A stretch of 25,594 nt of DNA from IMG/VR virus record IMGVR_UViG_3300001472_000151, positions 1 through 25,594 of that record; one strand, 5' to 3'. Made by a program: the position numbers and the translations under genes. This document shows positions 11,767-14,697 of the stretch, one piece after another; position 1 is the stretch's first letter; each line of letters starts with the position of its first letter. The notes beneath the pieces are model-generated. The model saw nothing but the letters and a program-made list of their open reading frames with translations, searched no databases and had not been told where the DNA came from. The DNA is from a virus.

Positions 11767-11884
11767 AGAATTAGCCATTTCAATAAAAATCTGGTTTTGT
11801 AGTCAGCCAAAATTTGCACAGATAACAATGGTCGGTTTAGTTGCATTTGCAATAATTGCCTACGCAATGAGTTTGGTGACATGA
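11753..11884 (+). CDS. Small single-span membrane protein
   Basis: A 43-codon ORF starting at ATG 11753 with an excellent ribosome site (AAGGAG at 11739-11744, spacing 8). The protein has a basic N-terminal half and one membrane helix near the C-terminus ('ITMVGLVAFAIIAYAMSLV'). Its stop overlaps the start of the EF-hand holin candidate (ATGA), which supports it being real. Its place in the lysis cassette suggests a holin, antiholin or spanin-like role; the sequence does not discriminate. Confidence 0.55.
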   Translation: MRGIKELAISIKIWFCSQPKFAQITMVGLVAFAIIAYAMSLVT

Positions 11885-12156
11885 CTCCAATCAAAAATGC
11901 TGATTTAGATAATGATGGAATTGTAAGTACAGAAGAATTATCCGCTGTTGATGCCCACAACAAGCTTGAAGCTCAAACGAGAGTAGCAATAGCAAGTTTC
12001 ATTATTATGGTGGCATTTGCAACAGTGTTAATTTCTGGGCTTGTCCCTGAGTCACGCATTGTCAGCCTTGGGCCATTGATAAGTACGTTATTTATAGCCA
12101 AAGCTGGGATAATAGGGGCTTGGTTCGGGATGACAGGCTATATGTCTCGAAAATAA
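11881..12156 (+). CDS. EF-hand-containing two-span membrane protein (holin candidate)
   Basis: 91 residues. Residues 8-19 form a full canonical EF-hand loop (D8, D10, D12, G13, V15, E19), followed by two membrane helices (about 34-57 'VAIASFIIMVAFATVLISGL' and 61-88). The start overlaps the stop of the 43-residue membrane protein, and a 3TM-holin-like gene follows after 1 base. The size and two helices suit a class II holin. A calcium loop at the N-terminus is an unusual addition and might couple pore formation to divalent ions, which is speculative. Confidence 0.55.
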   Translation: MTPIKNADLDNDGIVSTEELSAVDAHNKLEAQTRVAIASFIIMVAFATVLISGLVPESRIVSLGPLISTLFIAKAGIIGAWFGMTGYMSRK

Positions 12157-12157
12157 A

Positions 12158-12616
12158 ATGGATATACTTGGTAGCCTTGTTGGTGCGGCATCTGGCGGCT
12201 TGTTAGGCGTAGCTGGTTCATTAGTTGGGAAAATTGCTAATTATTTTGAACTAAAACAAAAAATGAAGTTGGAAGAAATTCAAAACCAACATTCATTAGC
12301 TGTTATGGACAAACAAGCAGAATTGCAAAAAATGGCGCACCAAGGCCAATTTAAATTAGCCAGTTTAGAAACTGACAGCGCAAATTTAATTGCTTCTTTT
12401 AAACACGACGCAAGCTATGGCGAAACTTATAAATGGGCAAATTCCATATTACGGTTTATTCGACCCTTGCTTACTTTTAGCGTGGTTGGCGTGTTTGTTT
12501 ATGTTTATTTCAAATCTGAACAAATGGGGGATTTAGACACAGTTCAACGGATGAGTAACGAAATATGTTTTTTAACATCCACCTGTTTGAGTTGGTGGTT
12601 TGGGAGTAGAAAATGA
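12158..12616 (+). CDS. Holin-like membrane protein with central coiled coil
   Basis: 152 residues: an N-terminal Gly-rich hydrophobic segment (about 3-25), a charged coiled coil (about 30-75), then two C-terminal membrane segments (about 98-117 'FIRPLLTFSVVGVFVYVYF' and 133-148 'ICFLTSTCLSWWFGS'). The 'R-x-x-RP' before a helix and the closing 'WWFGSRK' are features of the three-TM holin type seen in phages and gene transfer agents. It overlaps the lysozyme start by 4 bases. It is the strongest candidate for the main holin here. Confidence 0.6.
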   Translation: MDILGSLVGAASGGLLGVAGSLVGKIANYFELKQKMKLEEIQNQHSLAVMDKQAELQKMAHQGQFKLASLETDSANLIASFKHDASYGETYKWANSILRFIRPLLTFSVVGVFVYVYFKSEQMGDLDTVQRMSNEICFLTSTCLSWWFGSRK

Positions 12617-13029
12617 GCGCATTTATTGAAAGACTATCTGAGCGTTTAGAGAAAGAGGAAGGATGTGAACTATTTCTTTATGATTGCCCCGCTGGTTACA
12701 AAACTTTAGGAATTGGCAGAAACGTAGAAAGTAGAGGCATCACAAAGGCAGAAGCCTTAACAATGTTAGAAACAGATATAAATGTAGTTATTTCAGAATT
12801 AGATAATACTTTCCCTTGGTGGAACGATTTAAGCGAAAACAGAAAAATTGCATTGGCTGATTTAGCTTTTAATTTAGGAATGCCAAAATTGAAAGCATTT
12901 GTAAAATGTTTGAAATATTTACAAGACGGTGATTATGAAAACAGCGCAATCGAATTGCTAGATAGTAATTACGCAAAGCAAGTGAGCAACAGGGCAAAAC
13001 GAAATGCAGAGTTAATTCGTGAGGGCTAA
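12613..13029 (+). CDS. Endolysin, GH24 (T4-type) lysozyme
   Basis: 138 residues. The opening 'EEGCELFLYDCPAGYKTLGI' followed by GR carries the GH24 catalytic set: E16 in EEG, D24 in YDC and T31 in KTLGIG, as in T4 lysozyme E11/D20/T26. The remaining domain includes 'ALADLAFNLG' and 'NRAKRNAEL', both usual in this family. There is no signal peptide, so export to the cell wall depends on the holins just upstream. It hydrolyses the peptidoglycan MurNAc-GlcNAc bond at the end of infection. The ATG overlaps the holin stop (ATGA). Confidence 0.9.
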   Translation: MSAFIERLSERLEKEEGCELFLYDCPAGYKTLGIGRNVESRGITKAEALTMLETDINVVISELDNTFPWWNDLSENRKIALADLAFNLGMPKLKAFVKCLKYLQDGDYENSAIELLDSNYAKQVSNRAKRNAELIREG

Positions 13030-13030
13030 A

Positions 13031-13195
13031 ATGGAAGGTTTTGATGCGTTAGATTTGCTAAATACAGCCATTGCCGCATTCGCGATATTGGGCGGCATGG
13101 CATATGCGATTATAAAAACAAAAATTGATGTAGAGCATTTAACTAAGAAGGTTGAAACATTATTCCAGCTTTGGAATGAAAGAAACAAAAAATGA
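13031..13195 (+). CDS. Small membrane protein with C-terminal helix, lysis-cassette member
   Basis: A 54-codon ORF starting 1 base after the lysozyme stop. One membrane segment (about 10-29, 'LNTAIAAFAILGGMAYAII') is followed by a charged amphipathic helix ('VEHLTKKVETLFQLWNERNK'). The layout resembles a small inner-membrane spanin or a holin regulator, but spanins are usually longer and no outer-membrane lipoprotein partner is visible. The tight spacing supports it being a real gene. Confidence 0.5.
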   Translation: MEGFDALDLLNTAIAAFAILGGMAYAIIKTKIDVEHLTKKVETLFQLWNERNKK

Positions 13196-13237: not shown

Positions 13238-13375
13238 ATGGAAAAAGAAATTACCGCTAGGTATAATGAGCGTTGTGAGTGTGACTGCGATAATTGCGTT
13301 GAATGTAATTGTGATCCATCCATTTGCAAGTGCAAAGGCCACCAGCGGCCCACAGATAAAGAGTGCAACGGTTAG
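13238..13375 (+). CDS. Metallothionein-like Cys-rich protein
   Basis: A 45-codon ORF with a good ribosome site (AAGGA at 13226-13230, spacing 7). It has nine cysteines at 13, 15, 17, 20, 23, 25, 30, 32 and 43, making CxCxC, CxxC, CxC and CxC clusters interleaved with Asp and Glu, plus one His (H35). Such density and spacing are typical of metallothioneins that bind Zn, Cd or Cu(I) through thiolate clusters; a zinc-binding knuckle is the main alternative. It is the last gene before attP and its stop codon lies in the first attP repeat, a usual place for a prophage-expressed moron. Metal binding is predicted, not shown. Confidence 0.55.
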   Translation: MEKEITARYNERCECDCDNCVECNCDPSICKCKGHQRPTDKECNG

Positions 13376-13385
13376 TGCAACGGTT
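13363..13385. repeat. attP arm repeat pair 1 (GTGCAACGGTT x2)
   Basis: Two perfect copies of GTGCAACGGTT, at 13363-13373 and 13375-13385, with a 12-base period. The first copy overlaps the last codons of the metallothionein-like gene. The same pair recurs at 13419-13440 and 13617-13639, flanking the tRNA-like core. Tandem direct repeats on both sides of a core are what arm-type integrase binding sites look like; Int binding is inferred. Confidence 0.75.
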
Positions 13386-13398
13386 GGCAATTTAGCAA

Positions 13399-13416
13399 TT
13401 CTGCGAAACCGCAGAA
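13399..13416. repeat. Perfect 7-bp inverted repeat inside attP
   Basis: TTCTGCG, loop AAAC, CGCAGAA. It lies between arm repeat pairs 1 and 2. No T-run follows on either strand, so it is not a standard terminator. It could be a protein site (IHF/Xis neighbourhood) or a 3'-end structure for the late transcript. Confidence 0.45.
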
Positions 13417-13418
13417 AA

Positions 13419-13440
13419 GTGCAACGGTTGGTGCAACGGT
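13419..13440. repeat. attP arm repeat pair 2
   Basis: GTGCAACGGTT at 13419-13429 and GTGCAACGGT at 13431-13440 (the last base of the second copy is A instead of T), again with a 12-base period. It is identical in arrangement to the other two pairs and lies about 70 bases from the tRNA-like core. Confidence 0.75.
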
Positions 13441-13509
13441 AAAACTTAGCTAAAAAACATCAAAACTATGCAAAACTGGGCGGGAAATGGCAGAAAACCT
13501 AGCTTACAG

Positions 13510-13563
13510 TGGTGACCCCGACAAGATTCGAACTTGTGACCTACAGATTAGGAATCTGTTGGC
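13510..13563 (-). other. attP: attP core: 3' part of tRNA-Arg(CCT)
   Basis: Read on the minus strand, this gives the anticodon arm (stem ACAGA/TCTGT, loop TTCCTAA, anticodon CCT), a 5-base variable loop (AGGTC), the T arm (ACAAG/CTTGT with TTCGAAT) and the acceptor strand ending in CCA. The 5' half of the tRNA (acceptor 5' strand and D arm) is missing, so it is not a functional tRNA gene here. It sits directly beside the integrase stop codon. Integration into a host tRNA-Arg(CCT) gene, restoring its 3' end, is the natural reading. The exact crossover cannot be placed without the host sequence. Confidence 0.85.
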
Positions 13564-14697
13564 CTATTCTTTTAACTTGTTGTTTTTACTGCGTAAGTTA
13601 TGTGGTCGGGGGAAAAGTGCAACGGTTGGTGCAACGGTTGACGCATTTTTGTCTGTTGTAAGGCCAGACGTAAAAGTGCTTAACGCTGGTTCATAAACCG
13701 CATAATGCTTTCGATAAGTGTCAATCGAAATATTAAAATGGTCACAAATCTGGTCGCTGGTATTTTTGCCTGATCGTACAGCGTGGGTTATTGCAGTTCG
13801 TCTAAGATCGTGAGGCGTTAACTCTGGGAAGCCAGAACGTTGTGCAATCGTGGAAAATGATTGTTTCAAATCAGCAATAGGCTGGCCTTTGTTTTGTATT
13901 ACATGGTCATCACTTATCTCTTTTGCTTTCCATTCCTGATACATCCCCAAAAGCAAATTAAAAATACCGCTAGGTATAATTATACGGCTTCTTGGCTTCC
14001 TTCCAAATTTGCGCTCTCCAGCAAAGTTAATTTCATTGTTGTTAAAATCAACATGACCAGCGTTTTTATTTTTGTGCCATCGTAATTGCAGTATAGCTGT
14101 TTTGCGCTGGCCTGTTTCTAAAGCAATTCTAATAAATTGATAAGTGTGCTTGCTGTTAGATTGTTCTGCTGTTTGCAAAAACAAATCTATATCTTTTTGG
14201 CTTTCTAAATAATTTTCTCTTGGCTCATGCGATTGAGATAATTTGAACCTTGGCACAGTATCAATAATTTTGCTTTCGTTTGCGGCGTAGTTAAAAGCCG
14301 CTTTAAATATACGTTGATAGCCTACCGCCAGTTTATCGTGAATTAAATCTGTGGTGATGTTTTTAATTTCCACATCTCTAAAACGCTCACGAATATACTT
14401 CGCATCCGTTAAATATTTTTTGCGGTTTTTTTGGTTTTCTGTTTTTGCAAGCACACGTTCAACGTAATTTACTATTATTTCATTAACTGTGTGCGCTTGA
14501 TTGCTTTGTTGTTCTTGCTCTAACGTTTCATTAAATTCTTTTAATTTTTGCAAAGCTATTTTGTTGTCACTAGTATTCGTTCCTCTAACTCTTGTTCTTT
14601 GCGCGAGAGTATCCCACCAAACAATTTCAAATTTGTTGGTTGCTTTTCCGTTTTTTCGCCGTTTGCGAATGTATGCGCCGTCACGCCTTTTTGCCAT
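13564..14697 (-). CDS. int: Tyrosine-recombinase integrase
   Basis: 377 residues. An N-terminal arm-binding type domain (about 1-55: 'GAYIRKRRKNGKATNKFEIV') is followed by a core-binding SAM-like domain (about 65-150) and the catalytic domain. Catalytic residues: R198 in 'ETGQRKTAIL', a Lys in 'GERKFGRKPRS' (230 or 234), H296 and R299 in 'HDLRR', H320 in 'CDHF' (usual LGH altered) and nucleophile Y332 in 'RKHYAVY'. It carries out integration and excision at the adjacent tRNA-Arg attP. The gene stops exactly at the tRNA remnant, and its 3' end contains an arm repeat pair. It is the last gene of the leftward operon. Confidence 0.93.
   Translation of the reverse strand: MAKRRDGAYIRKRRKNGKATNKFEIVWWDTLAQRTRVRGTNTSDNKIALQKLKEFNETLEQEQQSNQAHTVNEIIVNYVERVLAKTENQKNRKKYLTDAKYIRERFRDVEIKNITTDLIHDKLAVGYQRIFKAAFNYAANESKIIDTVPRFKLSQSHEPRENYLESQKDIDLFLQTAEQSNSKHTYQFIRIALETGQRKTAILQLRWHKNKNAGHVDFNNNEINFAGERKFGRKPRSRIIIPSGIFNLLLGMYQEWKAKEISDDHVIQNKGQPIADLKQSFSTIAQRSGFPELTPHDLRRTAITHAVRSGKNTSDQICDHFNISIDTYRKHYAVYEPALSTFTSGLTTDKNASTVAPTVALFPRPHNLRSKNNKLKE
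13617..13639. repeat. attP arm repeat pair 3, inside the integrase 3' end
   Basis: GTGCAACGGTT at 13617-13627 and 13629-13639, 12-base period. It is embedded in the integrase coding sequence, where it encodes the TVAPTVA segment close to the C-terminus. With pairs 1 and 2 it brackets the tRNA-like core. Confidence 0.75.

Follow-up and report, generated by a model that had tools for sequence, protein, structure and literature searches.

A cysteine-rich peptide gene behind the lysis genes of a temperate marine phage: a candidate late metal-thiolate peptide and its relatives in IMG/VR

The closest described systems are the bacterial metallothioneins (BmtA/SmtA and the Pseudomonas metallothionein; PF02069), which are small, cysteine-rich proteins with CxC motifs and a histidine ligand, as is the phage-encoded peptide considered here. 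SmtA ends in CxCH, as does the core of the canonical members of the phage family. Bacterial metallothioneins often have histidine among their ligands (PMC10612145), and the metallothionein of Pseudomonas fluorescens (PflQ2 MT) is Zn3Cys9His (PMC7387436), close to the eight cysteines and one histidine that are conserved in the phage peptide. However, the phage peptide has no PF02069 match, its core cysteines are packed into 20 residues, and it has a phage late operon for its surroundings instead of an adjacent smtB-type regulator gene. With the eukaryotic metallothioneins (PF00131, PF12749) it shares CxC/CxxC clusters, a cysteine fraction of about one third in the core and a core free of aromatic residues, but it matches neither profile and has a His ligand and fixed Asp, Glu and Pro residues. 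The third comparison is with the small late-module genes of the HMO-2011-type phages (HMO-2011, HTVC033P and the Roseobacter CRP phages), with which most assignable carriers of the gene share TerL, lysozyme, TerS and portal; ten HMO-2011-type GenBank genomes (nine isolates and one metagenome-derived), scanned around TerL, nevertheless lack the peptide, and therefore no cultured carrier was found here.

The window, by which we mean the whole stretch of DNA that was analysed, is an IMG/VR record of 25.6 kb. The features around the cysteine-rich gene are as follows.

11881..12156, + strand: small membrane protein, candidate holin by its position (phrog_27150, unknown function)
12158..12616, + strand: probable lysis gene (phrog_6637, with a weak similarity to holins)
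12613..13029, + strand: lysozyme (endolysin; Pfam PF00959, E 9e-14; phrog_7)
13031..13195, + strand: small membrane (TM)/coiled-coil protein, with relatives near the cysteine-rich gene in L127, L130, L131 and L195
13226..13230, + strand: AAGGA ribosome-binding site, 7 nt 5' of the ATG of the cysteine-rich gene
13238..13375, + strand: cysteine-rich peptide gene, 45 aa, with homologues in L126-L131
13268..13342, + strand: conserved core, residues 11-35 (ERCECDCDNCVECNCDPSICKCKGH), eight Cys and His35, with invariant Cys/His and codon-position bias
13358..13384, + strand: arm-type direct repeat, copy 1 (a GTGCAACGGTT pair)
13364..13375, + strand: last codons of the cysteine-rich gene (Cys43-Asn-Gly-stop), which the first integrase arm-type repeat provides
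13414..13440, + strand: arm-type direct repeat, copy 2
13510..13564, - strand: attP core, consisting of the 3' portion (anticodon stem through CCA) of what is probably a tRNA-Arg(CCT) gene, as read from the sequence
13564..14697, - strand: tyrosine integrase (PF00589, phrog_1), absent or different in other carriers of the gene
13612..13638, + strand: arm-type direct repeat, copy 3

The translation of the open reading frame at 13238-13375 on the + strand is MEKEITARYNERCECDCDNCVECNCDPSICKCKGHQRPTDKECNG, with nine cysteines at positions 13, 15, 17, 20, 23, 25, 30, 32 and 43. When the window was simulated 150 times with a first-order Markov model, one simulation attained eight cysteines within 20 residues, and this density on its own is modest evidence, only marginally beyond chance, so that the reality of the frame had to be decided by its conservation in relatives. 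L126 proved to be the same phage (100% identity), whilst the other relatives are all distinct from the window, with identities of 79% (L127-L129), 73% (L130) and 76% (L131, core only). The core peptide of the window is 84% identical to that of both L127 and L130, and the neighbouring proteins are more diverged than this (35% for the TM protein in L127 and 50% for the lysozyme in L130). Over the 25 core codons compared between the window, L127, L130 and L131, variable sites fall 4, 2 and 19 times at codon positions 1, 2 and 3, that is, at 19 of 25 third positions against 6 of 50 others (Fisher p = 5.6e-8); dN over the core is 0.05-0.10, dS being saturated except in a single pair, and the other forward frames of the locus contain stops in most relatives. 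The gene is thus confirmed as real, with its core under strong selection, and the 45-codon frame and ribosome site described in an earlier note on this DNA both stand.

That note had also drawn attention to nine clustered cysteines. All nine are present in the window; however, Cys43 is missing from L127, L130 and L131, its codon lying within the first arm-type repeat, whereas the frame, the eight core cysteines and His35 are kept in all four sequences. Cys43 is accordingly best regarded as outside the conserved, and presumably the functional, set of cysteines. Among the outcomes that the note had named as counting against its reading, this loss of one cysteine out of nine is the only part that was borne out. 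The ligand pattern that four distinct phage lineages share is CxCxCxxCxxCxCxxxxCxCxGH, eight Cys and one His spanning 23 residues. A further candidate with a like cysteine spacing, in L040, was rejected as it has no usable start codon and a long open reading frame lies on the opposite strand. Two other observations concern the DNA of the locus. A 20-nt repeat with the palindrome WTACCGCTAGGTAT occurs inside the cysteine-rich frame (13251-13264) and again inside the integrase gene (13964-13977), and these are the only two WTACCN4GGTAW sites in the whole window, where 0.08 would be expected; the first copy is common to the window and L127, and L130 has a 12-base in-frame gap there. The three paired GTGCAACGGTT repeats at 13358-13638 surround the attP core and one of them supplies the last codons of the gene, the recombination site thus writing the C-terminus of the peptide.

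Profile searches and structure prediction, both proposed in the earlier note, yielded neither a metallothionein profile match nor a confident fold. No credible match to the peptide was found in Pfam, NCBIfam, PHROG or PDB sequences. There was no match to the prokaryotic metallothionein profile PF02069 at E up to 10 for the window or up to 1 for the family, and nothing in the window matched the eukaryotic profiles PF00131 and PF12749 even at a one-genome E-value. The zinc-finger-like segment that lies between the two CxC clusters of PF02069 is absent by inspection, there being no room for it since all the core cysteines fall within 20 residues. Weak Pfam matches to DUF1652, DUF3648, Peptidase_M55 and Synapsin_C were judged to be chance, and a weak resemblance to phrog_27696 (unknown function, 44 positions), touched by 3 of 32 family members, was not significant (E 0.13). 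The AlphaFold2 model from 32 sequences has a mean pLDDT of 60, a pTM of 0.27 and no regular secondary structure; such a model would neither support nor exclude any reading, as the lack of secondary structure is common both in metallothioneins and in poor models. Broad-sense metallothionein traits are nevertheless present, namely small size, richness in cysteine, a CxC/CxxC arrangement and Cys/His ligands under selection, and the best reading is of a peptide that would be metallothionein-like in design and outside the metallothionein families tested.

The peptide is not confined to the close relatives of this phage. A scan of IMG/VR with the pattern CxCxxCxxCxCDP returned 66 stretches with more than 50 clear members, and a second, which fixed only the cysteines, one Val/Ile/Met position and the histidine, returned 65 stretches with 32 distinct cores, all of one kind; matches to a bare-cysteine pattern were mostly low-complexity among those listed. 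About 65 contigs beyond the first relatives were thus found to carry a sister, or canonical, form, CxCDSCxECxC[DN]PxVC[RK]CxCH. In the second scan the cysteines, the hydrophobic position and the histidine are conserved by construction, but the other residues were not demanded and are almost as constant: D in 32/32 cores, S in 31/32, E in 31/32, D/N in 32/32, P in 30/32 and R/K in 31/32. The window, L127, L130 and L131 form a CxGH subtype, in which there is an extra upstream cysteine and a glycine replaces the last cysteine of CxCH, the ligand number being eight Cys and one His in both subtypes. A definition that embraces the two, CxCxxCxxCxCx3[VI]CxCx[CG]H with D-S/N, E and [DN]P between, fits the window. 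The claim that such genes are uncommon on phages was therefore mistaken for this type of peptide, and the family is apparently undescribed and widespread in marine phages; no paper on a phage-encoded metallothionein was found in the part of the literature that the search covered.

Members range from 32 to 104 aa. An in-frame head, YYRxYYxxR, precedes the core in 27 of 57 members and a C-terminal tail, FKxxxDFE, follows it in some, the window having neither. Heads of the form MGYYRxYYxxR with varied synonymous codons occur in L145, L146, L147, L155, L172, L174, L189, L195, L202 and others, and in L149, L173 and L188 the YYRxYY head is on a separate upstream open reading frame. The DNA upstream of the core had been considered as a promoter-like element, an idea which was dropped as the varied synonymous codons mark a translated YYRxYY head. 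Tails of the FKxxxDFE or TLVRDFE type are seen in L149, L152, L161, L170, L177, L194 and L138, and L146 and L156 have a parallel tail, MFKMENID; among the loci scanned, such tails are confined to this family. In L223, L224, L226, L227 and L229 a second cysteine cluster (LCACDDAEEGQLCEC) stands before the core, the two lying at the end of a longer open frame with no clear start.

Most assignable carriers are of the HMO-2011 type, their TerL sharing as much as about 80% identity with that of Puniceispirillum phage HMO-2011, and in these the gene occupies a constant position, in a group of small genes that precede lysozyme, TerS and TerL. Between L131 and Pelagibacter phage HTVC033P the TerL identity is 58%. 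The 35-kb contig L195, from a relative of the window phage (lysozyme 91%), carries the canonical form (MTEEKKCACDSCVECGCDPEVCRCDCHTKQTGVDEE) at the same place, directly after the lysozyme and the small membrane protein. In isolate phages, tblastn gave nothing credible for the peptide of the window, for the L131 protein or for two canonical members, although the low-complexity filter may mask the cysteine core. In prokaryote genomes no relative was found by the A1 search and the CxGH pattern; the sole match, a His/Cys-rich open reading frame from the Halanaerobiaceae, was rejected as low-complexity.

What might such a peptide do? A metal-thiolate cluster is the best explanation of eight invariant thiols and a histidine whose number is kept through a ligand swap, and the cluster itself may be considered well supported by this pattern of conservation. 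The earlier suggestion of a metal-thiolate peptide thus gains from the strong selection on the Cys8His set, as would be expected, but not from any match to a metallothionein profile. Inspected by eye, the 45 residues show no signal peptide, and the peptide is therefore presumably cytoplasmic and reduced. From the sequence we infer metal binding, the identity of the metal, late expression and the role of the peptide: a small acidic protein would be expressed late, its gene being the last of the lysis/late operon, and its eight cysteines and one histidine would wrap a metal, most likely zinc and, by ligand count, about three ions. The metal-loaded form would then probably buffer zinc and the thiol state of the dying host, or else act as a module, held by zinc, for a late phage protein, with buffering slightly ahead. 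Taken as a whole, a late phage metal-thiolate peptide, with zinc as the likely metal and either of these roles, is in our judgement the probable answer, though not by a wide measure.

The second of these roles deserves consideration on its own, as a zinc-folded adaptor in which the metal has a structural part and a specific late partner, be it a host protein or one concerned with packaging, assembly or the timing of lysis, is bound by the fixed Asp/Ser/Glu/Asp-Pro/Val surface. Because the non-cysteine residues are so strictly conserved, this would be a near-equal alternative to metal buffering, although taken singly it is still a tentative proposal. These residues are nearly invariant though the scan did not demand them, a constancy uncommon in a simple metal sink, which would count against buffering; together with the heads and tails, the fixed Asp, Ser, Glu and Pro go beyond what such a sink would require and argue for a specific partner, and the YYRxYY heads in about half of the members suggest a partner-binding role. 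The constant neighbourhood beside TerS/TerL and lysozyme points the same way. However, the form in the window has neither head nor tail, eight cysteines in 20 residues exceed the need of a one- or two-zinc finger, and the peptide has no predicted fold and no relative in the PDB. An iron-sulfur peptide, in which the CxxCxxC of the core (Cys17-20-23) holds a redox cluster, is improbable: this spacing is indeed found in all members, but it is followed by CxC where ferredoxins have CxxxCP, no Pfam profile of the ferredoxin type matches the peptide, and there are more cysteines per 20 residues than one cubane needs.

The position of the gene bears on a further proposal, that it is a moron at attP which raises the metal tolerance of lysogens; this follows the suggestion of the earlier note that it may change their metal tolerance or redox state. 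The gene does lie between the lysis genes and attP, whose core adjoins the integrase and is flanked by the arm-type repeats. However, it was not correct to place it wholly outside the lysis genes, as it is the next gene on the same strand after the lysozyme and the small TM protein, with a gap of 42 bases, and it adjoins this pair in the window, L127, L130 and L195. No terminator of its own was found for it, and as for a promoter of its own there is only a consensus match, at chance rate. The gene is therefore placed at the end of the late/lysis operon, as part of the late module and not of attP, because it is kept without an integrase (L130 and L195), with a different integrase (L127-L129) and beside lysozyme and terminase in HMO-2011-type phages; its place behind the lysis genes would imply late expression. 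The L130 (33 kb) and L195 (35 kb) contigs gave no integrase match, and although they may be incomplete, each spans the locus without a break and without an integrase. The link to attP is not supported by this distribution, a benefit to lysogens found no support, and a lysogeny moron is very unlikely. The chance origin of the frame, for which the density reached in simulation left some slight room, is refuted by the codon-position test, with the conservation and the family of about 65 contigs also against it, and can be dismissed.

The broadest form of the preferred reading, that the metal-thiolate peptide belongs to a widespread, undescribed family of marine phage Cys8His peptides which hold about three zinc ions and manage zinc or redox state late in infection, in HMO-2011-type phages and a temperate lineage, is possible but is advanced tentatively. 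The interest of the family lies in its wide distribution within a dominant marine phage group, and its two subtypes illustrate how a ligand can shift along a cysteine cluster with the ligand number kept. If the peptide is a zinc-folded adaptor, it would mark an unknown late step common to otherwise different phages. If the peptide binds metal, the HMO-2011-type phages, a dominant group in the ocean, and the temperate lineage would bring their own late-module metal-thiolate protein into a sea scarce in zinc and other trace metals, and the handling of trace metals by viruses during lysis would become directly testable.
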